In this document: in pieces, positions 3,401 through 47,129 of the stretch | Numbering within the stretch: position 1 is the stretch's first letter | Layout of the letters: the number at the start of each line of letters is the position of its first letter | Assembly: GCA_947470805.1 (NCBI GenBank) | Contig: CANIVU010000002.1 | Span: 1 to 64,000, forward strand | Length of the DNA: 64,000 bases | From: Acidobacteriota bacterium | GTDB taxonomy: Bacteria; Acidobacteriota; Terriglobia; Bryobacterales; Bryobacteraceae | Direction: 5' to 3' | Made by a program: the position numbers and the translations under genes | Notes under the pieces: model-generated | Told to the model about the DNA's origin: nothing | What the model saw: only the letters and a program-made list of their open reading frames with translations | The model's database searches: none

Positions 3401-3889
3401 AGAGAGATCGCGTTCGGGGAGGATTTCCGGGAGGATGCCGTATTTAGCGGGGGAGAAGAAGTTGGCTTGTGCGGCGAGGAGGAACAGCACGCCCAGGAGC
3501 ATGGGCATGCTGGTGGCTTGCAGGGCGAAGAGGGCGAAGATCATCGTCAGGATTTCGAAGGCTTTGGTGACGATTAGGACTTGGGATTTGGAGAAGCGAT
3601 CGGCAAGTTGACCGGCCCAGCCGGCCATGAGAAGGAAGGGGAGGACGAAGACGGCACCGGTGAGGGCGAGGTACTGGGAGCCGGCTTCGGCGTTGCCGGC
3701 GGTATAGGCGACGGCGGCGACGGAGACGATCATCTTGAAGACGTTGTCGTTGAAGGCGCCGAGGAACTGGGTCCAGAGGAAGGATTGGAAGCCGCGATCT
3801 TTGAGAAGCGTGGCGTAGCTGGAGTGTGTCATGCCCTCTGTAGGGGCATTTTGGTGGCCAAGGGGCTCATTGTTTGTAAGTGATTGCAT
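404..3889 (-). CDS. aas: Trifunctional lysophospholipid transporter / acyltransferase / acyl-ACP synthetase (LplT-Aas fusion)
   Basis: This 1161-residue inner-membrane protein probably imports lysophospholipids and re-acylates them with acyl groups activated on ACP. Three family signatures are seen in order. An MFS domain (about 25-430) contains [11 protein letters not shown] and [15 protein letters not shown] PlsC-type acyltransferase (about 440-630) has the NHVSYAD box near 463 and FPEGQIT. An AMP-binding adenylating domain (about 650-1150) has [11 protein letters not shown] near 797, YGCTEM and [14 protein letters not shown]. The start at 3889 has a GGAAGGA Shine-Dalgarno about 6 nt upstream. 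A second Met at residue 20 is possible. Fusions of LplT with Aas are known in other bacteria, so the architecture is rare but not new. Acyl-chain preference cannot be read from the sequence. Confidence 0.9.
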
Positions 3890-3955
3890 TCTCGTCCTTC
3901 CAGGGGTTCATGCGCGAACGGAGTTCGATTAGGCTCATACATATTTCGAACACGG

Positions 3956-3961
3956 TATGAT
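3956..3961 (+). promoter_or_regulatory. -10-like TATGAT close to the start of the sigma-54 activator gene
   Basis: TATGAT lies 6 nt before the ATG at 3968, and no Shine-Dalgarno is visible. If it is a -10 box, the transcript would begin at or within a few bases of the start codon (leaderless). There is no clear -35 box at normal spacing. Confidence 0.35.
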
Positions 3962-3967
3962 CATTTT

Positions 3968-21924: not shown

Positions 21925-24900
21925 GTGCACTGGAGAGTCTCGACGGGTACTTGAAACAGCTGGAGCGCAAGATGCGTCTGGCGGCGTGGACGCGCGGCGT
22001 GGCCGTGGCGGCTTTCTGCGCCCTGATCGCAACGGCGCTGCTGGTGCTGTACACGAACTCGACGGCGTTTGCCGACAGGCCCGTGATCATTGCCCGCTTC
22101 GTGCTCTTCCTGGTGCTGGCGCTGGCGTTGACGTTCGGCATTATCATCCCGCTATTGAAAGTGAACCGGCGCCGCGCGGCGAGCCGTGCGGAGCAGGCAT
22201 TGCCGTTTGGCGACCGGCTGCTGACGGTGGTGGAGCATCGCAACGATGCCGATCCGTTTCTGGAATTGATCGCGGCCGATGCCTTGCCGGTTGCCATTTC
22301 TGGCGGCACGGCGGCCATCGTGCCGGCGCGCACGCTGATGATGTTCGGCGCGCTGGCGATTGTTGGCGTGGGGTCGATGGTATGGCTGTTGCAGCGCGGG
22401 CCGGGCTACTGGGGCTACGGCGCGAACCTGCTGTGGTTCGGGCCTCCGAAGATTGAGGCGGGTTCCTTCTACGACATTCAGGTCCAGCCGGGGAATAAGG
22501 CTGTCCGCAAGCGCAGCGACGTGACGGTGACCGCCAATCTGGTGGGTATGCAGACGGGTGTCGTGAAGATTTTCGCTCGCTACCGCGGGGCGAGCGAATG
22601 GGAACAATCGCCGATGATGCCCCAGGGCACGGGCTATGAGTTCGTGTTCGCCGGGTTGCCCGACACGGTCGAGTATTACGTCCAGTCGGGGCCGGTGAAA
22701 TCGAAAAGCTACACGCTGACGGCGGTGGATCTGCCGGGCGTGAAGAACATTAAGGTCACCTATGTGTACCCGCCGCAATTGGGCATGCCGTCGACGACGG
22801 AGGAGCATGGCGGCGATGTCCGCGCGGTGACGGGCTCGACGGCGAAGTTGGAAATTGAGTTTGATAAGGCCCTGCAGAATGGGCTGATCGTCATCAACGG
22901 CGAGGAGACGAAATCGCTGCAGATGATCGCGCCGAACAAGGCGATTGTGGAGATCGCGGTCAATAAAAGCGGCGTCTATCACGTGGCCGGGCGTGAGTTG
23001 AACGAGAACGTGCGCCTGACCGATGACTATTTTATTGAGGCGCAGGAGGACGGCGATCCGGTGATCAAGATTCGCCGGCCGGGGCGCGATGCGAAGGTGA
23101 ACCCACTGGAAGAAGTGCCGGTGGAGGTGGAGGCGTCCGACGATTTCGGCTTGCGCGAATTGACGCTCCGGTATTCGGTGAATGGCGGCGAGGAAAAGAC
23201 GATCCAGATGCTGCCCGGCCAGAACGTGAAGCAGGCCAATGGCAAGACGCTGATCACGCTCGAGGATTTCAAGCTGCAGCCGGGCGACGTGGTGTCGATG
23301 TACGCCGTCGGCCGCGATGCGCGCAACACGGTGCAGACCGATATGGTGTTCGTGGAGGCCATGCAGTGGGAACTGGAGTATTCGCAGTCCCAGCAGGGCG
23401 GCGGCGGTGGTGGTGGCGGTGAACAGGAAGACCAGGGCAAGATTTCGGCGCGGCAGAAGGAGATCATCGCGGCTACTTGGAACCAGTTGCGGAACCGGTT
23501 CGCGGACAAGAAATCGATGGCGGAGAACGCCAAGTTCCTGTCGGAGATGCAGGCGAAGTTGAAGGATCAGGCCAAGTCGCTGGCCGAGCGCATGACGCGG
23601 CGCGAACTGTCCGGATCGAATGAGGAGTTCAAGAACTTCACGAAGGAGATGGAAGCGGCGTCGTCGGCGATGGGCTCGGCGGCCGAGAAGTTGAAGGGGG
23701 AGAAGTTCAAGGACTCGCTGCCGCATGAGCAGAAGGCGCTGCAGCATCTAATGCGTGCCGAGAGCTTGCAAAAGCAGATCCAGGTTGCCTTTGGGTCGCA
23801 GGGCGGCGGCGGTGGTGGCGGTGGCGGCGCGTCGCGCGATCTCGACAATTTGTTCGATCTCGAACTCGATACGGAGAAGAACCAGTACGAGACCGGCCAG
23901 CAGCAGGCGGGCGGCGGCGAGAGCCGCGAGAAGCAGGTGGACGAGGCCATGCAGCGGCTGAAGGAGTTGGCGCGGCGGCAGCAGGAGTTGGCCCAGCAGC
24001 AGCGGCAGAACAAACAGAGCTTCCAACAGAAGTGGCAGCAGGAACAGTTGCGCCGCGAGGCGGAAGAGCTGAAGAAGAAGATGCAGGAGTTGGCGCAGCA
24101 ACAGGGCCAGCAGAGTCAGCAGGGGCAACAAGGTCAGCAGGGCCAACAAGGACAACAGGGCCAACAAGGACAACAGGGGCAGCAAGGACAACAGGGACAG
24201 CAAGGTCAGCAAGGACAGCAAGGACAACAAGGCCAGCAGGGCCAGCAGGGCCAGTCGTCCTCGCGGGATCGTTTGCGCCAGATGGCCGGCCAGCAACAGC
24301 AACGGCAGGACCCGCGTTTGCAGCAGGCCTTGGAGCGCCTGGATCAGGCGACCAAGGATATGCAGCGGGCCAATCAGCAGGGCCAGCAGGGACAGTCCGG
24401 ACAGCAATCGGCCGATGCGCAACGAGCGGCCGAACGGCTGAATGAAGCGCAGAACGCGTTGCGCGGGATGCGCCAGGATCAATCGTCGAACAAGATGGGC
24501 GATCTGGCGGAGCGCGCCAAGCAGTTGGCCGAACAGCAGCGGGAGTTTGCCAATCGCGTCAATCAGGAATTCGGGCCGAAGTCCGGTCAACAGGGCCAGG
24601 ATCCGGCGGCGATGCGTGGGCAGAAGATGGATATCCAGCAGCAAATGGCCAAGGAAAAGGAACGCATGACGCAGGCGTCCGAGCGGCTGGAGCGAGACTT
24701 GCAGGACGCCAGCCGGCAGATGCAGGGTTCGCAGCGCCAGACCTCTTCGAAGCTGCGCGAGGCCGTCGGCCAGATGCAGCAGGACCAAGTGACGCTGCGC
24801 AACAAGATGCTTGGCAACTACTACCGGCAGGGCTTGGCGCCGTATCTGGGTTCGCGCGAGCAGTCGTTGGCGAACGATATGGACAAGCTGCGCAAGGCTA

Positions 24901-25679
24901 TTGAAGGCGCCCAGCAGTCGATGGATCCGAACGCGCAGGATGGCGGCAAGAACGAGCGCAATCTGGCCGGCGTCGAGAAGCTCCGTGAACAGCTGCAGCA
25001 GATGGTGCAGGGGCAGCGCGGGCCGAACGGCCAGCGCGGTCAGCAGGGGCAACAGGGTCAGCAAGGACAGCAGGGTCAGGGTCAACAGGGCCAAGGCCAG
25101 CAGCAGGTGCAGAACGGGCAGCGCGGCCAGCAAGGTCAACAGGGCCAGCAAGGCCAAGGTGGCCAACAAGGTCAGCAAGGGCAACAAGGCCAGCAGGGCC
25201 AAGGTGGCCAGCAAGGCCAGGGCGGGCAAATGGGCGGCGGCCAGATGGGCGGCAACGGCCGTCAGCAAAGTCCCGGGCAACGCGGCTGGCGCGAAGGCGG
25301 CGACGCCACCAACGACGGCACACGCGAGTTCAACAGCATGGCCGGCGGTGCCAATCGCACCTGGCAGGACGGCATGCGGGCGCTGAGCGAACTGCGCGGC
25401 GCGGCCGGCGAATCGCCTGAAATGCAGAAGGAAATTGAGCAAATGATCCGCGAGATGCAGCGATTGGACCCGGGTAAGTTCACCGGGAATCCGGAGCTGG
25501 TGGAGCGGATTCGCGCCCAGTTCCTGCCGCAGTTGGAGCAGTTGGAGTTGAAGCTCCGCCGTCAAGTGGAAGCGCAGCAATCCGGCAATGTGCGCAGCGG
25601 CGCCGGCGAACGGATTCCAGCAGGCTACGCCGAACAGGTGGCCGACTACTATCGCCGTCTCAGCAAAGGGAACAAATAA
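21921..25679 (+). CDS. DUF4175-like membrane protein with two long Gly-Gln-Gln repeat tracts
   Basis: This 1252-residue protein ends the operon. Two or three N-terminal membrane helices (about 23-43, 53-75, 135-155) anchor a periplasmic region with Ig-like beta segments (about 185-480). A Gly run (QQGGGGGGGGEQ) follows. The rest is highly charged coiled coil rich in Gln and Arg. It is interrupted by two (Gly-Gln-Gln)n tracts encoded at about 24100-24254 and 25030-25260. The layout matches DUF4175 proteins found next to MoxR/Bat genes, which often have Q-rich coiled coils. The tracts may form extended or triple-helical spacers, or simply be expansion-prone low complexity. It ends 6 bp from the convergent glycosyltransferase gene. 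Confidence 0.8.
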   Translation: MSALESLDGYLKQLERKMRLAAWTRGVAVAAFCALIATALLVLYTNSTAFADRPVIIARFVLFLVLALALTFGIIIPLLKVNRRRAASRAEQALPFGDRLLTVVEHRNDADPFLELIAADALPVAISGGTAAIVPARTLMMFGALAIVGVGSMVWLLQRGPGYWGYGANLLWFGPPKIEAGSFYDIQVQPGNKAVRKRSDVTVTANLVGMQTGVVKIFARYRGASEWEQSPMMPQGTGYEFVFAGLPDTVEYYVQSGPVKSKSYTLTAVDLPGVKNIKVTYVYPPQLGMPSTTEEHGGDVRAVTGSTAKLEIEFDKALQNGLIVINGEETKSLQMIAPNKAIVEIAVNKSGVYHVAGRELNENVRLTDDYFIEAQEDGDPVIKIRRPGRDAKVNPLEEVPVEVEASDDFGLRELTLRYSVNGGEEKTIQMLPGQNVKQANGKTLITLEDFKLQPGDVVSMYAVGRDARNTVQTDMVFVEAMQWELEYSQSQQGGGGGGGGEQEDQGKISARQKEIIAATWNQLRNRFADKKSMAENAKFLSEMQAKLKDQAKSLAERMTRRELSGSNEEFKNFTKEMEAASSAMGSAAEKLKGEKFKDSLPHEQKALQHLMRAESLQKQIQVAFGSQGGGGGGGGGASRDLDNLFDLELDTEKNQYETGQQQAGGGESREKQVDEAMQRLKELARRQQELAQQQRQNKQSFQQKWQQEQLRREAEELKKKMQELAQQQGQQSQQGQQGQQGQQGQQGQQGQQGQQGQQGQQGQQGQQGQQGQQGQQGQSSSRDRLRQMAGQQQQRQDPRLQQALERLDQATKDMQRANQQGQQGQSGQQSADAQRAAERLNEAQNALRGMRQDQSSNKMGDLAERAKQLAEQQREFANRVNQEFGPKSGQQGQDPAAMRGQKMDIQQQMAKEKERMTQASERLERDLQDASRQMQGSQRQTSSKLREAVGQMQQDQVTLRNKMLGNYYRQGLAPYLGSREQSLANDMDKLRKAIEGAQQSMDPNAQDGGKNERNLAGVEKLREQLQQMVQGQRGPNGQRGQQGQQGQQGQQGQGQQGQGQQQVQNGQRGQQGQQGQQGQGGQQGQQGQQGQQGQGGQQGQGGQMGGGQMGGNGRQQSPGQRGWREGGDATNDGTREFNSMAGGANRTWQDGMRALSELRGAAGESPEMQKEIEQMIREMQRLDPGKFTGNPELVERIRAQFLPQLEQLELKLRRQVEAQQSGNVRSGAGERIPAGYAEQVADYYRRLSKGNK
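24100..24254 (+). repeat. Tandem 9-bp coding repeat encoding (Gly-Gln-Gln)n, first tract
   Basis: Units of the form CAGGGCCAA / CAAGGACAA recur about seventeen times with synonymous drift, keeping the Gln-Gln-Gly phase. This is a coding minisatellite within the DUF4175-like gene and a likely site of length variation. Confidence 0.9.
25030..25260 (+). repeat. Tandem 9-bp coding repeat encoding Gly-Gln-Gln, second tract
   Basis: A less regular second tract, with interspersed GlyGly, Arg and Met units (QMGGGQMGGNG at its end). It shares the 9-bp unit with the first tract, which suggests expansion or duplication within the gene. Confidence 0.85.
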
Positions 25680-25685
25680 CCGGTC

Positions 25686-27332
25686 CTACGGTTTGGTTCG
25701 CAAGTCGTAAATGTAGATCGTGTACCCGGCGCGAGCGGTGGGTACACGGTCACGGAATTTCTTGTAGTAGTCCTCGTACGGACTCTTGAAGAAGTGCCCC
25801 GGCAATAGTGTCGCGCTGATCGCGTAGACGGCCGGTTCCGGTTCCAGGATCGTCTGCCCTTTGGCCAACTCCGGGCTCCACGGCGGGGGAGTGGAGACGA
25901 TCTCTTTATCGGTGAAATGGCGCCACGGCGTGTCGGCGCCAAAGTAGGCCAGCCGGAAGCCCTTGGCATTGTTCTTCGTGGCCCACTCGCGCAACGCCGG
26001 CAGGTCTTGCCCCCAGTCCAGATTGCTGTCCGCCAGGTAGTGAAGGCCGTTGGCCGGGCCGCCGGCGAGTGCATTGAAGAACGCGATGCCGTGCGGGTAG
26101 TAGTACAACGATTCCCCCGCACCGAGCAGCAAAGCGACCAGAACGAATCGCCGGTGTTCGACCGCTACGCGCGCGGCCATCAGTGCCGCGAACGGCAGCG
26201 CCGGAAGGATTAGCCGGATGCCCAGTTGATGCCCTGTCATGCTGGCCAGTGCGATATACAACACCGGCGGCAACAACAGGAAGACCGACAACGCGTCGCG
26301 CTTGCGGATCGTATAAACAGCAGCGGCGAGGAACAGGAGTTGATACGCCACCGGCACCTTCACGGCCAGCGCGATCAGGAAGTACCAAGGGTCGGCGGTG
26401 TGCCGAACGGTGCCCAGCAGGTAGATGGGCGGGCGATCCGCCGAGCTCCAGAACAGCCCTATGCAACCCTGCCAGAAGTACGCGGGCACGGGCAGCCACT
26501 GGAAGATCTGGCCGACGGCGGTGAACAGCCACGGCACCTTCGGATCGGCCCATTTATGCACAATTTCCACTGGATGCAACAGGCGCACGTTCCATTGATA
26601 GGCCGTGCACAGGCCCAGGTAGAGGATGGCGACGAACAGCGCGAAGTGCTGCGGAAACCGCCGCCATTGTCGCGCCAACAGAATCACCGGGCCGATACCC
26701 GCCAGAATGATCAATGACAACTTCGCGAACACGCCCAGCAAGGTCGCCGCCGCCAGCCACGACACTGTCCGCCACGACGGAGACTCCCAATAGCGCCACG
26801 CCGCATACCAGAACGCCAGGTAACCCATCGCCGCCGCCACGTCGTTCTTCACCAGTGCCCCATGGCCCAGTGCCGTCGGTTCAAAGGCGAAAATCGCTGC
26901 GGCAATCAGCGCCGCCATTCCGCCGCCAATCGCCCGTCCCCACCGCCATATCAGCAACACGGTGGCAAGGGAAAACAGCAGCGCGGGCAGCCGGAACAAA
27001 AACGTCAGCCGCTGATAAAACGGGTCTTTCAGATCCACGGCCCAGGCCGCGGCGGAAGCCCATTCGTCTTTAGACTGCCAGCGCGGATGGTCGGCGATCT
27101 CCAGCCCAAAGGCGCGCGGCACCCAGCCTGTGGTGATCTTCAACAACGGCGCCAAGTCGGGTACATGGTAAACCTTGTCGCCACCCCAGAAGAAGTGGGC
27201 GCCCAACATGTGGTTGGGTTCGTCCATGGTGACACCGGTAGTGGCCGCCTCCCGGACAAGCAGCGCGAGTAAGATGAACAACAATCCGGAGAGAGCCAGA
27301 CGCTCCTTGGTGAATAAGTTCCCTAACCCCAC
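25686..27332 (-). CDS. Multi-pass membrane glycosyltransferase (GT39/ArnT-like, GT-C fold)
   Basis: This protein of about 548 residues has roughly ten transmembrane helices. The first loop carries the acidic motif MDEPNHM near residues 36-42, the position of the catalytic Asp/Glu of polyprenol-phosphate-sugar-using GT-C enzymes. A C-terminal soluble part has DSNLDWGQDLPALREW, a sequence common to this family. It would transfer a sugar from a lipid-linked donor on the outer face of the inner membrane. The acceptor is unknown. A TTG at 27335 or GTG at 27332 can start it. GTG is preferred because GGGGAAG sits about 4 nt upstream. It overlaps the 3' end of the enolase-superfamily gene, so translation is probably coupled. 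Confidence 0.8.
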   Translation of the reverse strand: MGLGNLFTKERLALSGLLFILLALLVREAATTGVTMDEPNHMLGAHFFWGGDKVYHVPDLAPLLKITTGWVPRAFGLEIADHPRWQSKDEWASAAAWAVDLKDPFYQRLTFLFRLPALLFSLATVLLIWRWGRAIGGGMAALIAAAIFAFEPTALGHGALVKNDVAAAMGYLAFWYAAWRYWESPSWRTVSWLAAATLLGVFAKLSLIILAGIGPVILLARQWRRFPQHFALFVAILYLGLCTAYQWNVRLLHPVEIVHKWADPKVPWLFTAVGQIFQWLPVPAYFWQGCIGLFWSSADRPPIYLLGTVRHTADPWYFLIALAVKVPVAYQLLFLAAAVYTIRKRDALSVFLLLPPVLYIALASMTGHQLGIRLILPALPFAALMAARVAVEHRRFVLVALLLGAGESLYYYPHGIAFFNALAGGPANGLHYLADSNLDWGQDLPALREWATKNNAKGFRLAYFGADTPWRHFTDKEIVSTPPPWSPELAKGQTILEPEPAVYAISATLLPGHFFKSPYEDYYKKFRDRVPTARAGYTIYIYDLRTKP

Positions 27333-28546
27333 CAAACTTCCCCGGCGGCTAAGTGGGCGCGGACAGTGTCCGGATTGAGTTCAATGCCAAGGCCCGGTTT
27401 CTCGGTCGCCTTAATGTATCCGTTCTCAATATACGGGCCATCCAACAGCAATACTTTATCCATCCAGTCGCCCTTGCCGGTTACCGTCTCCGTGGCGATA
27501 TAGTCGCGAATGGTCGACGCCCACTGAATATTTCCATACGTGTGCACCTGGCTGGCCGTATTGTGCGTCGCCATGGGCATGCCGAATGGGCCGGCGAAGT
27601 CCGCGATCCGCTTGGTTTCCAGGAATCCGCCCGAATTTCGCAAGTCCGGATTCAAAATGTCACATCCCTGGTTGACGATAAACTCCTTGAATCCCTCGCG
27701 CCGCGTCAAATTCTCGCCCATACAAATCGGCACCTTGGACGACGCCGTCAACCGTTGCCAGGAAGACGAATAATCCACCAGCAATGGGTCCTCCAGCCAC
27801 AACGGCTTGATGCTCTCCACCGCGTCGGCAATCTGAATCGCCGTTCGCACATCATACTCCCAGTGGCAGTGCACGATAATATCGTGATCGAACCCAATGG
27901 CCTCGCGGCAATTCTCAAACCCCTGTCTAACTTGGAGTAATTCCTTCGTCGTCAAAATCCGGTTACTCGGGTCTTTCGCGACATCGTTCTTCGCGTTCGT
28001 CCGCGGGAATCCGAACTTGTGGCAGGTGAACCCCGCCGGGTCCGCCTTCGCCTGCGCGGCCCACTCGCGGCACGATGCCTTATCGAGCATATTCTTCGGC
28101 GCCGAGTGATCGTAAACTCGCACCTTATCCCGGAATCGCCCGCCCAATAGTGACGAACTCGGCACGCCCAGAATCTTCCCTGCCAAGTCCCACAGCGTCA
28201 TCTCAATCCCGCTCGCCGCGCGCATCAAATTGTGCGCCGAGCCATCGGTGCGGTTCCCCGACAAATTACTGCCGCCCGCCCCCAGGTTCGTGTAGATCGT
28301 ATCGATCTGCAGCGGGTCTTTCCCAATCAGCCACGGCCGCAGCGCCAGGACCTGTTCCTTTACGCCCACACCCGGCGAACCGTACGCCTCGCCGATGCCG
28401 TAAACACCGTTATCCGCCGTGATCTTGATGAGCGTGTACGTGCGCCCACCCTGCATCACCATCACCTGCACGTCTTTGATTTTTACTTTGCCGATTTGCG
28501 CGGCGGCGACTGGCAAGGTCGAGAGGAAGAGGCGTCGGGAGATCAT
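27323..28546 (-). CDS. Tat-exported mandelate racemase / muconate lactonizing-type enolase-superfamily enzyme
   Basis: This 407-residue protein has a twin-arginine signal (MISRRLFLSTLPVAAAQ), so it is probably folded in the cytosol and exported. The enolase-superfamily capping domain is followed by the barrel, with acidic ligands in LWLEDPL near 248, CMGENL near 274 and a His in THNTA near 323. It resembles the sugar-acid dehydratases (galactonate-dehydratase-like). Where that group has a metal-binding Asp (VDFH type), this protein reads VHCHWEYD, so Asp appears replaced by His in an alignment made by eye. The substrate is unknown. The gene begins 3 bp after the Cas6-like gene, whose end carries the GGTGAG ribosome site. 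Confidence 0.82.
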   Translation of the reverse strand: MISRRLFLSTLPVAAAQIGKVKIKDVQVMVMQGGRTYTLIKITADNGVYGIGEAYGSPGVGVKEQVLALRPWLIGKDPLQIDTIYTNLGAGGSNLSGNRTDGSAHNLMRAASGIEMTLWDLAGKILGVPSSSLLGGRFRDKVRVYDHSAPKNMLDKASCREWAAQAKADPAGFTCHKFGFPRTNAKNDVAKDPSNRILTTKELLQVRQGFENCREAIGFDHDIIVHCHWEYDVRTAIQIADAVESIKPLWLEDPLLVDYSSSWQRLTASSKVPICMGENLTRREGFKEFIVNQGCDILNPDLRNSGGFLETKRIADFAGPFGMPMATHNTASQVHTYGNIQWASTIRDYIATETVTGKGDWMDKVLLLDGPYIENGYIKATEKPGLGIELNPDTVRAHLAAGEVWWG

Positions 28547-30025: not shown

Positions 30026-31069
30026 ATGCCTGCGATACGAGATATCTCCGCCGATAAATTTGTCTTTGGCTGCCACCGCTTTGGCTTCGGGCCCGCGCCC
30101 GGCGGCGGCTACGTTGACGTGCAGCGGCACGTGGTGCCGATGGTGCGCACCGCTCTCGAACTGGGTATCCGCACCTTCGACTCCGCCGTCCTCTACCGCG
30201 CCACCCTCCAGCTCGGCAAGGCACTCGAAGCCCTCAACGTCGACCCCAACACCATCCGCCTCCAAACCAAGTGCCTCCGCTTTCTCGGCCTCCAGGTGGA
30301 CAACGCCAAGGAGCACCAGCCCGACGTCCTGCTGCCCAGCATCCCCGAGCGCTACCACGGCCTCACCGACAAATGGGACCCCTCTCCCAAAGGTGTCGAA
30401 CAGCAGATCTGCCGCGAACGCATCGAATTCGGCGGTAAGAATCTATGGGGCGTCGCCCTCCACGATCCGCCGGACATGGCCAAACAGGTCGGAATGAACT
30501 GGGATACCGACATTCGCCCCGCCGTCGCCTTCCTCAAAAAGGCCAAAGCCGCCGGCTTCGTCGAACGCATCGGCCTCGGCATTAAGGAGCCCGAATTCGT
30601 CGACCGCTTCGTGGCCGAAGAACCCGGCGCGCTCGACTACGCCGGCATCACCTTTTGCCCCGCCATTCTCGGGTCCCTCATGAAGGTCATCGAAACCAGC
30701 CACGCGCAGAATTTCGAAGTCACCCTCATGGGCATCAACTACGGCCAGGCCTTCACGCTCACCGAGGACCCGGCCACAGCGCCCCCGTTCCTCTATAACT
30801 ACGAATTCGCCAACGACGCCGAACGCGCCCTCATGTCGAAGTTCTTCCGCATCTGCGGTTCGACGCCGTTAATCCACTTGGCCGCCGCCGTCGCCGGCCT
30901 GCTCGTCGTCCACTTCCCCAAATCGGTCACGCAAATCGTCACCGCCACCAAGACGCCCGAGCGCCTCGCAGAAACCATGCAACTGGTCCGCGAAGCCCAC
31001 GTGCCCGCGCCCGTCTGGGCCGAACTCAAGGCCGCCGAACTCATCCCGCGCGACTTCCCGACGTCATAG
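30026..31069 (+). CDS. Aldo/keto reductase
   Basis: This 347-residue cytosolic NAD(P)H-dependent oxidoreductase keeps the complete AKR catalytic set: Asp and Tyr in RTFDSAVLY near 50-56, Lys in LQTKCLRF near 77 and His in VALHDPPD near 146. It resembles D-threo-aldose/L-fucose dehydrogenase-type members (KFVFGCHRFGFGPAPGG, HAQNFEVTLMGINY). The start has TATCCT 9 nt upstream and no strong Shine-Dalgarno. It converges on the radical SAM gene and the two share 6 bp at their stops (TCATAG at 31064-31069). It may supply or consume a keto/aldehyde sugar intermediate used by the neighbouring aminotransferase fusion. That link is inference. Confidence 0.85.
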   Translation: MPAIRDISADKFVFGCHRFGFGPAPGGGYVDVQRHVVPMVRTALELGIRTFDSAVLYRATLQLGKALEALNVDPNTIRLQTKCLRFLGLQVDNAKEHQPDVLLPSIPERYHGLTDKWDPSPKGVEQQICRERIEFGGKNLWGVALHDPPDMAKQVGMNWDTDIRPAVAFLKKAKAAGFVERIGLGIKEPEFVDRFVAEEPGALDYAGITFCPAILGSLMKVIETSHAQNFEVTLMGINYGQAFTLTEDPATAPPFLYNYEFANDAERALMSKFFRICGSTPLIHLAAAVAGLLVVHFPKSVTQIVTATKTPERLAETMQLVREAHVPAPVWAELKAAELIPRDFPTS

Positions 31070-32149
31070 CGCGATCTGAACCAGCGGCGCCGCCGGCCGG
31101 TGCGATTCCAGCACCAGCGGGCACGCATCGCCGTGGGTGCGGCAGAAATGCGGTACCTTGCCCGCGGCCAGTTCCGTCCGCATGCCAACGATGATTTCGC
31201 CGTTCCAAACATCTTCAATCCGATGCTCCGACGGAGGCGCAATGGACTTCTTCAAAAAACAACACGGCGTATAAATGTCGTGCAGCGGCCGCACGCAAAG
31301 AAATTTCCAAGGAAACAAACAGGGGATGTCGATCCCATCCTCGGCCTGCTCCCGGATGAACGACTCCTCCGGCTTCCACTCGTAGCTGATGTTCAATCCG
31401 CGAAACTCTTCGCTGTCCTCGATTTCCCGCCGGATTTCCACGTATTCCGCATACCCCAGCCGCTCTTCCTCATAGCGGAAGGAATAGCCAAACGACCTGC
31501 TTTCAAACGCCCCCGCGCGCATATCGAACAGGTGGCGCAGGATGATCCGGTCCACGCCCATCGATTGCGCCAACCGCAGAAAATCCAGTACATCATGCCG
31601 GTTCCCGCGCATGACGATATAGCTCAGCACGAACGGCAGCGGCTTGCCCGGCCGCAACTCGGCGTGCAGCGCCGCGAACCGCCGCAGATTGCGAATCACA
31701 ACGTCGAACCCCTTGCCCTGATACTGAAAATACGTGGCCTCCGTGGCGGCGTTCATGCTCACCGCGAACTCCAGTTTATCGGCGTGCGCGATCAGAAACC
31801 GCGACCGCTTCTCCGTCAACAGTTGCCCGATCGTCGTGAACCCGAACTGCACGCCCGCCTCCGATAGCCGTTGCACCACGGTCTCGTGTCCGGGGTAGAG
31901 TTGGAACTCGCCATACGTGCAGTCGTTCACCCGGCGCGCCTGCAGCAGATACGGCCAATACTGGTTCAGCAGGTCATCGGCAATGTGCCCGGGCGCCACA
32001 TAGCCCACGGCATTCTTCCCCACGCAATACGTACAAGGCGGGTTCACATGGCACTGGCCGGTGAACTCAATATTCACCGTCTCCGGCAGGCTCTCCAGAT
32101 ACGTGCGGCCCTCGCGAATCTCCCGCAGCAGCAACGCGCGGTCGCTCAC
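31064..32149 (-). CDS. Radical SAM protein with CX5CX2C cluster motif and Cys-rich C-terminus
   Basis: This 361-residue protein has a radical SAM core beginning at TGQCHVNPPCTYC. The cluster cysteines are C33, C39 and C42, so the spacing is CX5CX2C instead of the usual CX3CX2C. The C-terminal part has a set of cysteines (CLFPWKFLCVRPL, YTPCCFLKKS, HFCRTHGDACPL) like an auxiliary SPASM/twitch iron-sulfur site. The start overlaps the stop of the upstream fusion gene by 4 bp (ATGA), so translation is coupled and equal expression is expected. The reaction is unknown. Acting on the amino product or the keto precursor of the fused aminotransferase is the simplest guess. Confidence 0.85.
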   Translation of the reverse strand: MSDRALLLREIREGRTYLESLPETVNIEFTGQCHVNPPCTYCVGKNAVGYVAPGHIADDLLNQYWPYLLQARRVNDCTYGEFQLYPGHETVVQRLSEAGVQFGFTTIGQLLTEKRSRFLIAHADKLEFAVSMNAATEATYFQYQGKGFDVVIRNLRRFAALHAELRPGKPLPFVLSYIVMRGNRHDVLDFLRLAQSMGVDRIILRHLFDMRAGAFESRSFGYSFRYEEERLGYAEYVEIRREIEDSEEFRGLNISYEWKPEESFIREQAEDGIDIPCLFPWKFLCVRPLHDIYTPCCFLKKSIAPPSEHRIEDVWNGEIIVGMRTELAAGKVPHFCRTHGDACPLVLESHRPAAPLVQIAL

Positions 32150-35100
32150 AGCTGCTTCTCCGACGGCACCACGGTCCGGCGCTCCACCGGAAGGCGCGGC
32201 ACCTCCAAATACGCCTGCGGATCCGCCGCCGCCATCGCCGCCGCCACGGTCCGTAGCGCCCGCGTGTAGGCTTCGACAATCCGCGCCTGCGCCGCCTCAT
32301 CATGCGCCCGGCAGACGATCACGTACCCCTTCACGCTGATCACCCGGTGCCGCGCCAGTTCCTGTTGCAACAGCGTGTGCAGCACCACGTCCATGTCCCC
32401 TTCCGCCTCCAGGTCGAAAAACTTGAAGTACATCCGGTAGGGCGGCCCAATCAGCGCGGCCCGCAGCCCCAGCGCCTGGCACGCCTCCCGCACCCCGCTG
32501 CGAATCGCCTCACCCGCGGCCCACACCTCCACCGGCACCGCCTCTTCGGCATAGATCTCCAACGCCGCCTTCGCCGCCGCGAACGAATGCGTCTCCCCCT
32601 TCATCGTCGGCGCGTACATGATCCGGTCCACGTGATTCATCAACAACCCCTTCCGGCTCACCAGCGCCGATAGCGGCATCCCATTCGCAATCGCCTTCCC
32701 CAAACACGTCAGGTCCGCCGTCACGCCAAACGCCTTCGTCGCGCTTCCGGAGCGAAAGCGGAAGCCCGTCATGATCTCATCAAAAATCAGCAGCGCCCCA
32801 TACTGATCGGCCAGCTCCCGCGCCCGCCGGAAGTACGGCCCGTCCGTCCAGTGCTGCGGATCTTTCGGATGCACGCACATCGCCGCCGGCTCAATCATAA
32901 TCGCGGCCAGGTCCCCCGCGTGCAACGCCGCCGCCTCTTCCAGCGCCGCAATATCCAAAAACGGTAGCGGCACATAATACGCATTGTTCCCCGCCGGCAC
33001 GCCCGTCTTGCCGATCCCCTGCATCCCCGCGAACCAGTCCGCCCACCCGAAATACCCCGCGCCCAGTATCACCTTTCGCCCCGTCGCCACGCGCGCCGTG
33101 CGCACCGCCCACGTGGTCACGTCGGAGCCATTCTTCCCGAAAATCGCCTCCTCCCCCCACGGAAACCGCGAACATACCAATTCCGTCACTTCCATCTCCA
33201 TACGGTGCGGTAACGACAACACGCCGCCGCCCGTGGCCACCGCCCGCTGTACCGCTTCCACCACCCGCGGCTCGCTATACCCCAGTAAATGACAGCCCCA
33301 CCCCATCAGCACATCGGTGAACTCCGCCCCATCCACATCGGTCAACACGCACCCTGTGGCGCGCTCGGCGAACACCGGGAAACACGCCTCTCCCTTGCTC
33401 CGATGCACGCTCATCCCCGGCGAAAAATACGACCGGTTCCGGCGGTGCGAAATCTCCAACAGCTTGTCCGTCACCGACCGCGCCGCCTCCACCACCTCCA
33501 CCGTCAAATCCAGCGTCGGGCTCCCCTTGTCGCGAAACCAGAATTCGTTATAAACCGCCATGTCGAACCGCAGCGTGTGCCGGCCCGCCTGCTCCGGTAC
33601 CTGTGCGTGGATGACGAATTCAGCTTCCTGCCCCGGCCCCACACACGCCACCGCCAGATGCCCTACGGCGTGATACGCCCCATCAACAAAACAACAAAGC
33701 CCCGCCGACTGCCCGTTCGCCGGACTCCGCTCCCATGCCTCCGCGCCCGCGTTCCGCACCACCACGCGGAACTCCACCCGCGCCGCCGCCGGGTAGCTCG
33801 CCACCACATCATGCCTCACCCACTCCGCCCGGTACGCCGGCCGCGTCTGGTGCCGCCAAAAATCCTCCAACGCCAACGTCAACGCCCAATGCGCCGGCGC
33901 CGCAAACGCAAAGTGCCCGTCACCCGTCGGCCACACGGCCTGCCGCAGCCGCACGGGTTCCAACGACAACCCATCGGCCTCAACGTTCAACTCCATCCCC
34001 AGCGGCCACGCCTCCCGCCCCGTATTCCGCAAATGCACCACCACGCGGTCCGAATCCACCTCCAACGACAACAACTTCGCCGACCGCCGCTCCCCGCTCT
34101 GAAAATCCCGCTCATCCCGGTCCGCCCGCGGCACCACCCCCGCCTCCCGCAACTCCAGCATCTTCGCGTGAATCGCCGTCAACTCCCCCGGAATATCAAT
34201 CCCCAGCGAGTCGCACCGGCACGTCCGGTTCGTGCAACTCGCACACCGCGCCTCCTCCCAAGGATGCAGCTTGAAATACTGCAGCGTCGTCGAAATTCCA
34301 AACGGCGCCGTCGGGTACAGGTAGTGGTACGCCGCGCGGAACAGGTAGCTCACCGGCAGTCCTCGGCTGCACAAATCGTCACAATCCCCGCACCGGCTGC
34401 ACAGCGCCGTCTGCAGAATCGGGAACGGCTCCGCCATTGGCTCCCCCGCCACCACGTTCTCCTCCACCTCCGCCACCGACGCCATGCCCGGTACCACCGC
34501 CGCCACCGGCTCGGTGTCCAACAGATGCCGCAGAATCACCGGCGGCGCCGGATACACCGGCAACCCCGCGCGGTACAGCCGGCTGGGAAACGCCTTTCCC
34601 TGGCACAGCAGCCCGCCCGCCAACGGCTTCATCAGCAGCACGCCCACGTCGCGCTCCCGCGCCATCGGCAGGATCTCATCCCGCGTCCGCCACAGGTCCT
34701 CGCGCTCGTAATTGGTCACCGGTTGCGGCGGAGTTTCAAACTCCCACACCGTCTTCGCCCGATACGTCACAAGGTGATGCCCCAGCGGGTTGTACGCCAG
34801 CATCAGCGCGTCAAACACGTCGCGCCGCAGAATCTCCTTCATCTGTTCCGGCGACCCGTGATCGCTGCCGAAAATCCCCTTAATCCGCCCATCCGCCTTC
34901 AGCCGCTGCAGGTACTCCACCAGCCCGCCCGCGCCCCAAACGTTCGCCCCGAACAACTCCTGATCGGAGATCGACGTAACGCCGAACAGCGCAATCCGCT
35001 CCCGCCCAAATGCCTCGCACGTCCCCTCAAACGCCCGCTCGAACTCCTCCCGGCTCCCGCCCGTCTGCACCGAAAGCTGCACCGCCACGCCGTGTTCAGA

Positions 35101-35295
35101 TTCCTCGATCGCCCGCCGCAGTATCCCGAACGCGCCCTCGTACTCCGGCTCCGCATTCACCAGATTCACGCCCAGCGCGAAGGCCCTCTTACACGTCTCT
35201 ATCGCCTGCCGTTCGGGAACCCGCCGCAACTGGTTCGTCCCCAGCCCGACCACAGAAACCTGCAGATTTGTTCGGCCAAGCCGCCGGAATTGCAT
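32146..35295 (-). CDS. Fusion protein: degenerate aldo/keto reductase, 4Fe-4S motif, two beta-sandwich modules and class III aminotransferase
   Basis: This 1049-residue multidomain protein has four parts. An AKR-like domain (about 1-290) opens with FRRLGRTNLQVSVVGLGTNQ. A full 4Fe-4S motif CSRCGDCDDLC is at about 298-308, and a second Cys cluster (CASCTNRTCRC) near 350-362. Two beta-sandwich modules (about 400-610) share an N-x-G-x-x-x-W motif (RNTGREAWPL, RNAGAEAWER). A class III aminotransferase of glutamate-1-semialdehyde aminomutase type (about 620-1030) has PLP-binding IFDEIMTGFR and CLGKAIANG with the Schiff-base Lys near 866. The AKR tetrad is degraded (Asp to Asn in LVNAEPEYEG; Lys and His lost), while the PLP site is intact. 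It lies 29 bp after a kinase gene and overlaps the radical SAM gene. Confidence 0.85.
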   Translation of the reverse strand: MQFRRLGRTNLQVSVVGLGTNQLRRVPERQAIETCKRAFALGVNLVNAEPEYEGAFGILRRAIEESEHGVAVQLSVQTGGSREEFERAFEGTCEAFGRERIALFGVTSISDQELFGANVWGAGGLVEYLQRLKADGRIKGIFGSDHGSPEQMKEILRRDVFDALMLAYNPLGHHLVTYRAKTVWEFETPPQPVTNYEREDLWRTRDEILPMARERDVGVLLMKPLAGGLLCQGKAFPSRLYRAGLPVYPAPPVILRHLLDTEPVAAVVPGMASVAEVEENVVAGEPMAEPFPILQTALCSRCGDCDDLCSRGLPVSYLFRAAYHYLYPTAPFGISTTLQYFKLHPWEEARCASCTNRTCRCDSLGIDIPGELTAIHAKMLELREAGVVPRADRDERDFQSGERRSAKLLSLEVDSDRVVVHLRNTGREAWPLGMELNVEADGLSLEPVRLRQAVWPTGDGHFAFAAPAHWALTLALEDFWRHQTRPAYRAEWVRHDVVASYPAAARVEFRVVVRNAGAEAWERSPANGQSAGLCCFVDGAYHAVGHLAVACVGPGQEAEFVIHAQVPEQAGRHTLRFDMAVYNEFWFRDKGSPTLDLTVEVVEAARSVTDKLLEISHRRNRSYFSPGMSVHRSKGEACFPVFAERATGCVLTDVDGAEFTDVLMGWGCHLLGYSEPRVVEAVQRAVATGGGVLSLPHRMEMEVTELVCSRFPWGEEAIFGKNGSDVTTWAVRTARVATGRKVILGAGYFGWADWFAGMQGIGKTGVPAGNNAYYVPLPFLDIAALEEAAALHAGDLAAIMIEPAAMCVHPKDPQHWTDGPYFRRARELADQYGALLIFDEIMTGFRFRSGSATKAFGVTADLTCLGKAIANGMPLSALVSRKGLLMNHVDRIMYAPTMKGETHSFAAAKAALEIYAEEAVPVEVWAAGEAIRSGVREACQALGLRAALIGPPYRMYFKFFDLEAEGDMDVVLHTLLQQELARHRVISVKGYVIVCRAHDEAAQARIVEAYTRALRTVAAAMAAADPQAYLEVPRLPVERRTVVPSEKQL

Positions 35296-35324
35296 AATCC
35301 CAACCCGAGCCTACCACGCCCGCC

Positions 35325-37424
35325 CTACTGCGCCGATTTCGCCGAAAGCGACTCCCGGATCCGCTGCAACACCCGCCGCGGGTCCACCGTCCGGTCCAGC
35401 CGCAACACATCCTCCGGCCGCAAACCCTGCCGCTCGATCTCCTCCACGCCGCGCGACGTCGCAAACAACGTCCGCACCGCCGGAATCCGCGCCTGCACAG
35501 AATCCGCCAGCGCCGGCCCCGTCATCCGCGGCAGCACCACATCGCTCACCAGCAGGTGCAGAATCTCCACCGTCTTGTGCGCAATTTCCAACGCCTGCAG
35601 CCCGCTCCGCGCCTCCAGCACCCGGTACCCCGCCGCCTCCATCGTCTCCCGCAGCCGTTGCCGCTCCACATCGGATTCCAACGCCAGCAGCACCGTCTCC
35701 TCGCCCTGCAGCGACTCTTCATTCACCGGTTCCGGCTTCGGCCGCACCTGGTTCGGAGCCAGCGGCAGGAAGATGCGGAACGTCGACCCATACTTCGGCG
35801 CCGAATGCACCACAATCGAACCTTCGGCCTGCCGCACAATCCCGTACACCATCGCCAAACCCATGCCATTCGAAACCGGCCCGGTCTTGGTCGTGTAGAA
35901 CGGTTCAAAGATATGCGGCAGCGCTTCCGGCGCGATGCCCGTGCCCGTATCCACCACCGAGAGCGTCACATATTCACCCGGCCCCAACGGAGGCCGCGCG
36001 TCCAGCCGAGTCCGGTTCAACGACCGCACGCCGGTCTGAATCTGCAGCGTACCGCCATTCGGCATCGCCTCTTTGGCGTTCGCCACCAGGTGCAAGATGC
36101 ACTCTTCCACCAACTGCAAATCGGCGATCACCATCGGCAAATCGGCTTCCAGCGACAGATCCACATGAATCCCTTCGCTGGCCATCACGCGCACCAACCG
36201 CTCCACGTTCCGCACGGCGTCGTTGAAACTTACCTGCTTCGTATTCCGCGGATGGTTGCCCGAAAAAGTCAGCAATTGCCGCGTTAACGACGCCCCGCGA
36301 TCGCTCGCCCGCTTGATCTCTTCAATATCGTTCCGCACCGGATCCCGGTCGTCCAGGTTCACCAGCGCCAGCCCCGAATAGCCCGTGATCGCCGTCAACA
36401 GATTGTTGAAATCGTGCGCCACGCCGCCCGCCAGACGCCCCGCCGTGCTCAGCGATTCGGTCTCCCGCCGCCGCTCCTCGGCCTGCAGCGAATTCGTCAC
36501 GTCGGCGCCTGTCGACACCACATGCGTCAGCCGCCCGTACTCATCCCGCAACGCATTGTGGGTCCAGGAAATCGTGCGCATGGAATTGTCCCGCAGGCAC
36601 CACGAACTGTAGCTGTGGGAAGGGAACTCGCCGTTCAACACTTCCAACATCTGCTCCTCGGCCCGCTCCATCTCCGCCGGAGCCGCCACCGCCTGCCACA
36701 CATATTGCCCGCGCAACTCGCCCTCGGAGAACTGCGTCAACTCCTCGCACGTCCGGTTGTACCGCACCAACCGCCCCTCGTGGTCCACCACAATCAGCAG
36801 CGCCGGCAGGTTATCAATCAGCGACGACGCAAACCGCCGCTGCCCGTCAATCTCTTCCTCCGCCCGGTTCCGGTCGCTCCGGTCCCGCACAATCACGCTG
36901 AACCGCTTCTCACCATTCTGCGCCGGCAGTTCGCTCAACACCAGGTCCAACGGAAACCGCGTCCCCGCCTTGCGAATGCCGATCAACTCGCGCCCTTCAG
37001 CCGCGTGGATATAGTTCGCCCGTTTCCGGCCCTTCGCCGGCGGCGGAATCAGCGCCGCAATGCTCTTGCCCCGCACTTCGTTGAACGGATAGCCGAACAG
37101 CTTCTCCGCCGCCGGGTTGCTGCTCAGAATCTCGCCCGATTCCAGAATCACGAAAATCGCATCCCGCGAGAACTTCACGATCTCGCCCGCGCCCGGTACA
37201 ACCACCGGCGCCGCGGCCACCGTCTTCGTGCTCCGTCGCGTCAATAGCAACACGCCAACCAGCGTCAGCAGCATCGCGCACAAGCACCCGAGTGCCACGT
37301 TCACCGCCGTATAATTCGACGCCGGCGTCGGCGCCGCCACCGAGGCAGTGGCCGAAAGAGCAAGGGTCACCGCGAGATTTGCCACGCGGCTTCCAGAGAG
37401 ATCTTTAAGGTAATGGGGGAGCAT
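35325..37424 (-). CDS. Hybrid PAS histidine kinase with degenerate receiver domain
   Basis: This 699-residue protein has an N-terminal membrane helix pair region (ALGCLCAMLLTLVGVLLLTR). Two PAS domains follow (about 95-205 and 210-320), then a HisKA box AGGVAHDFNNLLTAITGYS with the phospho-accepting His near 335. The HATPase domain has DTGTGIAPEALPHIFEPFY and GMGLAMVYGIV. The C-terminal receiver keeps the Asp in LLVSDVVLPRMTG near 624. It lacks the conserved Lys (RLDRT at that place) and has a reduced acidic pocket, so phosphotransfer there may be altered. The ATG at 37424 coincides with a TTAGAAT hexamer. A GTG at residue 14 is an alternative. The gene sits 29 bp upstream of the aminotransferase fusion, so it may sense and control that pathway. 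Confidence 0.85.
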   Translation of the reverse strand: MLPHYLKDLSGSRVANLAVTLALSATASVAAPTPASNYTAVNVALGCLCAMLLTLVGVLLLTRRSTKTVAAAPVVVPGAGEIVKFSRDAIFVILESGEILSSNPAAEKLFGYPFNEVRGKSIAALIPPPAKGRKRANYIHAAEGRELIGIRKAGTRFPLDLVLSELPAQNGEKRFSVIVRDRSDRNRAEEEIDGQRRFASSLIDNLPALLIVVDHEGRLVRYNRTCEELTQFSEGELRGQYVWQAVAAPAEMERAEEQMLEVLNGEFPSHSYSSWCLRDNSMRTISWTHNALRDEYGRLTHVVSTGADVTNSLQAEERRRETESLSTAGRLAGGVAHDFNNLLTAITGYSGLALVNLDDRDPVRNDIEEIKRASDRGASLTRQLLTFSGNHPRNTKQVSFNDAVRNVERLVRVMASEGIHVDLSLEADLPMVIADLQLVEECILHLVANAKEAMPNGGTLQIQTGVRSLNRTRLDARPPLGPGEYVTLSVVDTGTGIAPEALPHIFEPFYTTKTGPVSNGMGLAMVYGIVRQAEGSIVVHSAPKYGSTFRIFLPLAPNQVRPKPEPVNEESLQGEETVLLALESDVERQRLRETMEAAGYRVLEARSGLQALEIAHKTVEILHLLVSDVVLPRMTGPALADSVQARIPAVRTLFATSRGVEEIERQGLRPEDVLRLDRTVDPRRVLQRIRESLSAKSAQ

Positions 37425-41254: not shown

Positions 41255-42913
41255 CTAATTCCCCTCCATCTCCTTAGACCCAATCAGCCGCACCTTCACC
41301 TGCCCCGTCTCGCCCTCCCCAATTTTCACCATCCCAATCCGGTCCTTAAACTGCTCCCAAAACCCCGGATCATTCAACGCGTCCGACTCCGCCTCCTCAA
41401 ACGCCGCCACCCGGTAACTCCCCGGTCGCAGCGAATCGAAACTAAACGAAGGCGAATCCGACTGCACCCGCACCTTCTTCGTGCTCCACGCCTCAATCGT
41501 AAACGGCTGCGAATCCGGCACCAGCCAAACGGCCACCCGCGGCGCATCCGGCGTCGTCCCCTCCACGGTCCCCGTAATCACCCCCGGCTTGTTACTCAAC
41601 ACAATCTCCAACGGCCCACTAACAGCCGCAATGTCAATTTCCAACCCCGGCAGTAACTGCCCGCCCGCATAAATGCCCTTCACAATCACCCCGGACTTAG
41701 CACGGACATTCACCGTCATCTTATCCCGCGAAACCGCCGCAAAGCTAAATGAACCAGCATCATCACTCTCCGCGCTCGACGGAGGTCCAAACATCGGCCC
41801 ACCCGCCGCCGGCTGCAAAGTGATCGAAACTTTCCCAAACGCAAACGGCGGCTCCCCATCTGCCCGCACCCGTCCATCAACCTTCGGCGGCGCCGCCGCG
41901 GCCACCGCCAACCCCGTCACGTCGTTCTGCCCCACCACCACCGGCTGCTTGGCCATCGTCTTCGGCCCGCCCTTGTCCATCGCCGTAACCGTCAATAAAT
42001 ACTCACCAGGCCGCACATTCCGGAAGAAAAAAGACCCATCCGCCCCAATCGCCCCTTCGCTCCCCCCGCCCATCATCGGCCCGCGGAACACCCCCGCCTC
42101 CCCCGAAGGACGCAACGAAACCCGCGCGCCCCGATTGGCCGGCGGCAAATCCCCCGTCACCCGTCCGCTCACCATCACCACCGGCGACCGCTGCAACCGG
42201 ATCTCCGCCCCCGTCCGCTCCTCGCCCGCATTCACCCGCACCGGACTCGCTGACGCCGCATCCACCGTCCCCGGAAAGTAAGTCGGCGCTTCCGTCGTCG
42301 CCCGCCCGCCCGCTTTCTCTACAAGCATCTCTCCGCGGTCCATCCCCCGCGTCGCCAGTAACTTGTAATTACCCGGCGCTAACTTACTCAGTCGAAACTC
42401 GCCTAAGTCATTCGTCATCGTGGCATTGCTAATCCCGCCCCGCCCGGTCGCTTTCCGCACCGGAATCGCCTGCACCGCCACCCGCTCCACCGGTTCCCCC
42501 GCCTCGTCCACAACACGCCCCGCAATCACACCCTGCTTGGCCAACACAATATCCACGCCCGTCTTCGTTGCCCCATCGGCCAACTCAATCGGATCCCCAT
42601 ACCCGCCCACCGTCCGCCCGCGATAAGCTCCCCGCAAATACCCCGTCTTCTCCGCCGTAATCCAATACTTCCCCTTCGGCAACTCGCGAATCACAAACCC
42701 GCCCTCGTCGTCGGTCATCCCCTTCGCCGTCCGCACGTCCCGCGTCTCGCCCTCCACCGTCACCACCGCCCGCCGCACCGGCGCCCCGGTCGATGGATCC
42801 AGCACCTTCCCCGCAATCGCCGCCGTGCCCGGCGTCGCCGCCGCCTGCGGCCGCCGCCCGCCCTGTCCAAATACGCTCACCGCCACTAACAAAACCAAAA
42901 TGCTACTTTTCAT
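41255..42913 (-). CDS. Secreted protein with carboxypeptidase-regulatory-like domains (paralogue A)
   Basis: This protein of about 552 residues has a signal peptide (MKSSILVLLVAVSVFG). Repeated carboxypeptidase-regulatory/transthyretin-like beta-sandwich modules follow (IAGKVLDPSTGAPVRRAVVT, VIAGRVVDEAGEPVERVAV, MVSGRVTGDLPPANRGARVS). No enzyme motif and no TonB plug or barrel is seen. Such proteins are abundant in Solibacteres, with presumed adhesion or matrix roles. The ATG at 42913 is preferred because the signal peptide begins there. A GTG at 42928 would add five residues. It overlaps the 3' end of the neighbouring paralogue by 11 nt, so the two are co-translated. Confidence 0.82.
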   Translation of the reverse strand: MKSSILVLLVAVSVFGQGGRRPQAAATPGTAAIAGKVLDPSTGAPVRRAVVTVEGETRDVRTAKGMTDDEGGFVIRELPKGKYWITAEKTGYLRGAYRGRTVGGYGDPIELADGATKTGVDIVLAKQGVIAGRVVDEAGEPVERVAVQAIPVRKATGRGGISNATMTNDLGEFRLSKLAPGNYKLLATRGMDRGEMLVEKAGGRATTEAPTYFPGTVDAASASPVRVNAGEERTGAEIRLQRSPVVMVSGRVTGDLPPANRGARVSLRPSGEAGVFRGPMMGGGSEGAIGADGSFFFRNVRPGEYLLTVTAMDKGGPKTMAKQPVVVGQNDVTGLAVAAAAPPKVDGRVRADGEPPFAFGKVSITLQPAAGGPMFGPPSSAESDDAGSFSFAAVSRDKMTVNVRAKSGVIVKGIYAGGQLLPGLEIDIAAVSGPLEIVLSNKPGVITGTVEGTTPDAPRVAVWLVPDSQPFTIEAWSTKKVRVQSDSPSFSFDSLRPGSYRVAAFEEAESDALNDPGFWEQFKDRIGMVKIGEGETGQVKVRLIGSKEMEGN

Positions 42914-44534: not shown

Positions 44535-44579
44535 TCCCTTGCTAGAATAGTAGGTTCCGAGATCTCTGAGGAGTAACAA

Positions 44580-47129
<2,550 letters not shown>

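Follow-up and report, generated by a model that had tools for sequence, protein, structure and literature searches.

Among the described systems closest to the locus treated here is the butirosin pair BtrN/BtrS, which combines a twitch radical S-adenosylmethionine (SAM) enzyme carrying one auxiliary cluster with a pyridoxal phosphate (PLP)-dependent aminotransferase acting on a sugar-like ring; BtrN performs the two-electron oxidation of an aminocyclitol alcohol with the auxiliary cluster as proposed acceptor (PMC9012708). Our locus lies in the window, a stretch of 64,000 nucleotides (contig CANIVU010000002.1) from an uncultured acidobacterium of the same genus as the Candidatus Sulfopaludibacter genomes (Acidobacteriota), and consists of a gene for a 1049-residue fusion protein, built from an aldo-keto reductase (AKR)-like barrel, an eight-cysteine (8-Cys) region, two beta-sandwiches and an aminotransferase, together with an adjoining radical SAM gene. 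BtrS is a DegT-type aminotransferase, of a family other than the class III found here, and we know of no pseudo-AKR, 8-Cys or FW domain in the BtrN/BtrS system. The parts of the present assembly belong to known families, while the assembly itself is undescribed as far as we searched: in the open-licence PMC literature (titles, abstracts and term counts) we found no description of this domain combination or of such a pathway, in agreement with the sequence-only reading from which this work started. We conclude that fusion and radical SAM gene very probably form one functional module and not a chance neighbourhood, since all 13 testable genomes have the radical SAM gene either next to the fusion or joined to it, four times within a single open reading frame (ORF). 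The module occupies the following positions of the window:

32146..35295, minus strand: gene of the 1049-residue fusion (ORF; Pfam)
34426..35295, minus strand: pseudo-AKR domain, about residues 1-290
34126..34407, minus strand: 8-Cys region C299xxCxxCxxxC309 ... C351xxCx4CxC361, predicted to hold two 4Fe-4S clusters
33847..34104, minus strand: first beta-sandwich, about residues 398-483 (AlphaFold2 secondary structure)
33481..33843, minus strand: second beta-sandwich, FW/N_BRCA1_IG-like, about residues 485-605 (weak PF16158 match; AlphaFold2)
32176..33474, minus strand: class-III aminotransferase domain, like glutamate-1-semialdehyde aminomutase (GSAM), about residues 608-1040
32146..32149, minus strand: 4-base stop/start overlap of fusion and radical SAM gene
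31064..32149, minus strand: radical SAM gene, 361 residues, twitch-like C-terminus (ORF; NCBIfam below cut-off)
32024..32053, minus strand: CX5CX2C radical SAM motif (C33, C39, C42)
31121..31321, minus strand: twitch-like cysteine set C277, C296/297, C336, C343, predicted to hold one auxiliary cluster (cysteine positions, by eye)

The linkage is a raw count over lineages that are not independent, with the radical SAM gene adjacent in nine and fused in four of the 13 genomes. Adjacent partners are found in the window, G006, G010 (whose contig begins inside the final 44 codons of the fusion gene and continues into the radical SAM gene), L066 and L067 (both convergent), L094, L095 (upstream, the ORFs overlapping by 266 bases as drawn, perhaps owing to a frame error), L096 (downstream, overlapping) and L097 (downstream). 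In the fused form, present in G001, G005, G008 and G017, a single ORF encodes 1,510-1,562 residues in the order radical SAM, pseudo-AKR, 8-Cys region, sandwiches and aminotransferase, so that the radical SAM part is N-terminal to the pseudo-AKR; the copy of G001 shifts frame near its end, and the fused proteins examined with the Radical_SAM profile were those of G017 and G005. Outside this fused form, pseudo-AKR and aminotransferase are joined in the window type and at L097 and split elsewhere. Three further loci (G013, L065 and L068), in which the gene runs off the contig edge, stand outside the 13, and on their other flank neither the ORF listing nor tblastn with three radical SAM proteins of the module gave a radical SAM gene. 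Because Radical_SAM matches number 18 to 71 in each of eight linked genomes, that is 2.8 to 11 per Mb, adjacency by chance is expected to be rare, and since order and strand of the partner vary (downstream overlapping or convergent, upstream, fused), the linkage is not mere synteny. The sequence-only reading had taken fusion and radical SAM enzyme to belong together and had named as a check whether full-length homologues always come with the radical SAM gene; the first proposal is thus supported, and the check, run over the 13 testable genomes, yielded no refutation.

The ORFs that had been noted at 31064-37424 and the AKR gene converging on them, four genes in all, were recovered with their coordinates, and so was the stop/start overlap, which measures 4 bases and reads GTGA in the window and ATGA in G006 and G010, where it is kept. 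For the fusion gene, the ratio of nonsynonymous to synonymous substitution rates (dN/dS) is 0.12-0.15 against G006 and G013, at synonymous distances (dS) of 1.6 to 2.2 that are near saturation. The radical SAM gene gives dN/dS values of 0.13 and 0.15, the value of 0.13 coming from the comparison of window and G010 with unsaturated synonymous sites (dS 0.30). Both genes therefore look to be under purifying selection.

The four-part architecture assigned to the fusion earlier is borne out by Pfam for AKR and aminotransferase, by alignment for the eight cysteines and by AlphaFold2 for the sandwiches. Its AKR barrel sequence matches PF00248 at 2.4e-11, above the cut-off, and L-galactose dehydrogenase by profile at 7.6e-19, and was aligned in 15 copies together with tetrad-bearing controls, a set that leaves out the 16th, fragmentary copy of G010, which likewise has Gln at the Lys position. 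Read by eye, the alignment holds the catalytic Lys in none of 15 copies (Gln in 13, Asn and Ser in one each) and the catalytic His in none of 15; among the 14 copies that hold the remaining stretch, Asp is absent throughout, its place being taken by Asn in copies of the window type and by His in all others, and Tyr is present in all. The Asp-Tyr-Lys-His tetrad is consequently reduced to its Tyr, and the designation of this domain as a pseudo-AKR was correct for every copy that holds the lost positions. All eight cysteines of the following region are conserved in 15/15 copies, as read by eye from the alignment. The same order of an AKR barrel and an 8-Cys region occurs in the AKR-ferredoxin proteins of L080, L085 and L086, which we take to be of the COG1453 type. 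These retain the complete tetrad, in contrast to the module, and arrange their cysteines as CxxCxxCxxCP followed by CxxCxxCxxxCP, whereas the module has CxxCxxCxxxC followed by CxxCx4CxC.

The first sandwich has no family match of its own. The second scores 21.3 to 23.2 bits against N_BRCA1_IG (PF16158), under the gathering score of 28, and with nine other sandwiches belongs to a set of ten scanned that all match this family at 0.1 or better; in the PDB, the FW-like sandwich finds 4ole at 0.0029, where two designed Ig proteins score better (about 0.001). FW domains are present in bacterial proteins, and one in fungal Nbr1 binds protein cargo (PMC9233695; PMC3357945). The likeness of the module sandwiches to the NBR1/ILRUN FW domain lies in this weak match, from which the window domain departs by its score below gathering. 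An FW-like sandwich is additionally carried by the radical SAM protein of L097. The AlphaFold2 model of the whole fusion has a mean confidence (pLDDT) of 71.1 and a pTM of 0.46; its domain arrangement is unreliable, and the fold matches listed are to aminotransferases only, leaving the AKR, 8-Cys and sandwich parts without fold assignment.

The aminotransferase domain matches Pfam Aminotran_3 at 2.1e-35 and keeps the PLP lysine Lys867 and Asp839. In structure comparison of its AlphaFold2 model, FumI (6hbv) ranks first (VIA Z 38.3, root-mean-square deviation 2.9, 373 aligned residues), closely followed by acetylornithine aminotransferase, GSAM and PctV, with GSAM structures 1 to 3 Z units lower. 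By its class-III fold with PLP lysine and aspartate the window domain resembles HemL; on the curated HemL model TIGR00713, however, it reaches 170.7 bits against a cut-off of 527.3, and on its best NCBIfam model, NF004856, 218.9 against 486, the closest names being those of GSAM. In a tree with 28 class-III controls, from which the damaged G010 copy was left out, the 15 aminotransferase domains of the module form one clade (ultrafast bootstrap 100, SH-aLRT 99). Ordinary HemL is ruled out by the scores below cut-off and the separate clade. The two GSAM-like controls L016 (in L046) and L017 (in L047), which adjoin NeuB and cytidylyltransferase genes, share the motifs FGKNGSD and GYHGWQDW with most or some of the module copies (IFGKNGSD and GAGYFGWADW in the window) and fall into a common, larger and unresolved tree group with them. 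They differ in standing outside the module clade, and L046 and L047 match neither the radical SAM proteins nor the pseudo-AKR of the module.

The radical SAM partner is more variable. The CX5CX2C motif is found in the proteins of the window, G006 and G010, and CX3CX2C in the 11 others compared. The window protein has no Pfam match at 0.001, while its G006 orthologue, 69% identical and with the same CX5CX2C, matches Radical_SAM at 4.5e-9; in NCBIfam the window protein reaches TIGR04317, TIGR04311 and NF033640, all radical SAM/SPASM families and all below cut-off. The SPASM family PF13186 is above cut-off in L094b, L095 and L097, at 0.0031 and thus below cut-off in G006, and without a match in the window protein. 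By eye, a four-cysteine set suited to one auxiliary cluster is present in 14/14 radical SAM proteins compared, generally C-terminal to the radical SAM motif and N-terminal to it in the fused form and L094b. Across lineages, the matched parts of these proteins are mostly 20 to 30% identical, with higher values for L095 against L096 (40%) and among L066, L067 and L094a (43 to 52%); the AKR-FeS part, by comparison, has 39 to 46% identity with its window counterpart. These values suggest that the radical SAM protein either evolves faster than the AKR-FeS part or has been exchanged. Monophyly of the partners is a possibility that we dropped, as a tree with long branches, entered by 9 of 12 control loci and by plus-strand ORFs only, does not display it. 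Beside the first radical SAM gene of L094 lies a second one (3506-5035) with N-terminal SPASM, whose cysteine spacing is almost identical to that of the N-terminal set of the fused forms. The radical SAM ORFs at L066 13389-15329 and L094 5135-7336 have a long N-terminal extension that matches no family.

We propose, with a probability of about 0.4 and by analogy to BtrN, that the module acts on a sugar or glycan precursor, one carbinol of which becomes an amine. From the observed domains, residue status, co-inheritance and fusions, we infer reaction, clusters, complex and substrate as follows. The radical SAM/twitch enzyme would abstract a hydrogen and turn the C–OH into a carbonyl, with its auxiliary cluster accepting an electron, and the ferredoxin-like 8-Cys region would carry the electrons onward. 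The AKR barrel, with Tyr kept and Lys, His and Asp lost, would bind the carbonyl unreduced and hand it on to the aminotransferase domain, whose PLP lysine and aspartate are in place and which would transaminate it, while the FW-like sandwiches may tether partners or substrate. We think it more likely that electrons leave the radical SAM enzyme than that they enter it, the direction considered in the sequence-only reading. A glycan sugar is a possible substrate, and the earlier suggestion of a keto sugar or an aldehyde rests on context. A tentative picture is that of a self-contained radical SAM/PLP machine for glycan amination, with a dead AKR as carbonyl shuttle and a two-cluster ferredoxin as electron exit, joined to a GSAM-like transaminase and, in some species, to the radical SAM enzyme in a single polypeptide of about 1,560 residues. 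If true, a single assembly equipped with an electron carrier would couple radical oxidation to transamination, a reductase fold would have been repurposed as a non-reducing carbonyl holder, and a further route to amino sugars would be added; the natural fusion, with its forms of about 1,560 residues offering one gene and one protein, would lend itself to testing the electron bookkeeping of radical SAM enzymes. Even with another chemistry, the recurring set marks an uncharacterised biosynthetic module across several bacterial groups.

Several observations weigh against this proposal. The BtrN-like chemistry is an analogy: single-sequence phmmer finds no PDB match to the window radical SAM protein at 0.01, the BtrN structure included, and the tree (4 label changes, long branches) does not unite the partners in one clade. 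The structure model of the window radical SAM protein is unusable (pLDDT 37.7), and for the 8-Cys region AlphaFold2 gives no usable model either, residues 297-397 staying below a pLDDT of 50. At L094, where the radical SAM gene is convergent and a second one lies beyond it, there are two candidate partners. The glycan context is weak and amounts to a hint: glycan-type genes are common, and among the ORFs scanned, on contigs of which several are short, such genes were seen up to about 10 kb from the module in seven of the 16 genomes (window, G008, G017, L065, L066, L094 and L097). Other genes are found directly upstream of the pseudo-AKR as well, namely a corrinoid adenosyltransferase gene (L067 1-759) and a molybdopterin oxidoreductase gene (L068 1-1380; PF00384, PF01568). 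Finally, the fusion gene is damaged in G010 and G013.

With the same module, the radical step could be a different one (epimerisation, dehydration or rearrangement of the substrate), the GSAM-like domain then shifting an existing amino group as an aminomutase and the 8-Cys region feeding electrons to the radical SAM enzyme. GSAM catalyses a 1,2-amino shift and provides the closest NCBIfam names, and varied radical chemistry would agree with radical SAM proteins that have diverged further (mostly 20-30% identity) than the AKR-FeS part (39-46% identity with the window). However, all GSAM models remain below cut-off, the clade is separate from all 28 controls, and the top structural match is FumI, a plain transaminase, albeit with GSAM structures only 1 to 3 Z units behind; a dedicated electron exit moreover suits net oxidation better, and we regard an aminomutase as rather unlikely, though far from negligible. 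The residues of the barrel raise the question of whether the pseudo-AKR is a working oxidoreductase after all, with a site rebuilt from Tyr and from Gln and His in place of Lys and Asp, that acts on the substrate itself. The Tyr present in 14/14 and the Gln in 13/15 copies point this way, whereas the loss of Lys, His and Asp from every copy holding the positions, the exchange of Gln for Asn or Ser in two copies, and the presence of Asn at the Asp position in the window type, where the other copies have His, make such an activity improbable.

It is also improbable that the target of the radical SAM enzyme is a peptide to be modified or a metalloenzyme to be matured, with the fusion as redox or amination partner. 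TIGR04317 and TIGR04311, the best NCBIfam matches of the partners, are putative maturases, and L068 offers its molybdopterin oxidoreductase gene, but the scores are far under the cut-offs (47.2 against 380 bits for the window, 130.5 against 400 for L095 as the best) and the molybdopterin gene occurs at one locus only. No small free ORF of 20-119 residues is listed at 29.6 to 38.1 kb of the window, a range outside which precursors are possible. The view that the genes are neighbours by chance, or that the locus is decaying and has no joint function, could draw on the defects in the draft assemblies of G010 (residues 85-606 missing, frame change) and G013 (in-frame stop). It is highly improbable in light of the 13/13 linkage, is contradicted by the four fused forms and agrees poorly with dN/dS values of 0.09-0.15 (radical SAM, G006, G013 and fused-form comparisons), most of which are saturated, the value of 0.13 for the window and G010 radical SAM genes being unsaturated. 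Conversion of a carbinol into an amine is the reading that we prefer.

The module was found in 16 genomes by a fusion search of 151 genomes, profile searches and a contig scan. Within the genus, 8 of 19 genomes carry it (G000, G001, G005, G006, G008, G010, G013 and G017); the other carriers are two further Acidobacteriota (G559 and G738), G151 to G154 (Syntrophobacteraceae, Deltaproteobacteria, Desulfococcus), G407, a genome from the same phylum as G152, and G155 (bacterium UASB270). Profile searches in wider groups gave 2/345, 1/4, 3/396, 1/242, 1/39 and 1/18 genomes, the seed included, and the module is rare outside the genus. The contig scan, which found 12 loci, relied on two short peptide patterns, so that copies will be missed. 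One of its loci, L074, was rejected, as the AKR there is an ordinary one (25% identity, Asp kept by eye). A tblastn search of plasmids returned no match, and viral contigs contained no relative. In G010 the fusion gene (L041 4082-5659) lacks the stretch of residues 85-606 and has several frame changes, while the kinase and radical SAM genes around it are open and 93% identical; the damage is either recent decay or misassembly. The G013 copy (L038 114-2729, draft genome) is conserved except that its aminotransferase part is interrupted by a single in-frame TGA.

Two genes flank the module in the window:

35325-37424, minus strand: PAS/histidine-kinase/receiver gene (ORF; Pfam: 2 PAS, HisKA, HATPase, receiver)
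30026-31069, plus strand: AKR gene convergent on the radical SAM gene (ORF)

The sequence-only reading had counted the kinase into the gene set and had noted the AKR gene as converging on it; membership of either gene is not supported. A search of 21 stretches (1e-3) recovered the kinase as a module neighbour in the window and G010 alone, and the convergent AKR gene matched only in these two, for which reason we exclude both as parts of the module. The kinase query also matches another kinase of the window (59148-60200), and in G006 and G013 a different large ORF lies upstream of the fusion.

Regarding the wider surroundings, the window contains at 25686-27335 a gene for a PMT_2 glycosyltransferase (GT-C type), which is separated from the radical SAM gene by 3.7 kb and is present in G010 too. 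Near the fused form, G017 has a glycosyltransferase 2 gene and G008 has WecG, a Wzy_C match and a sub-threshold PMT_2; in G006, the one ORF tested gave no match. Two NeuB queries matched L046 and L047 only and none of the 19 module stretches including the window (1e-3), several of these stretches being short. A NagA-like gene stands beside the fused form of G017 (TIGR00221, 119 bits against a cut-off of 225.65), with ORFs similar by eye in G008 and G001. At L042 (5298-7793), L043 and L045, a NagA-like ORF and a weakly ROK-like one (22.3 against 22.9 bits for ROK in L042) converge on the fused gene. In UASB270, a sulfatase gene (PF00884; L097 10506-12914) is located directly upstream of the module, with glycosyltransferase genes further out. 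Elsewhere in the window, a 1252-residue ORF at 21921-25679 carries long Gln/Gly-rich repeats in its second half, and two tandem ORFs at 41255-44642, alike by eye, contain repeated carboxypeptidase-regulatory-like segments.

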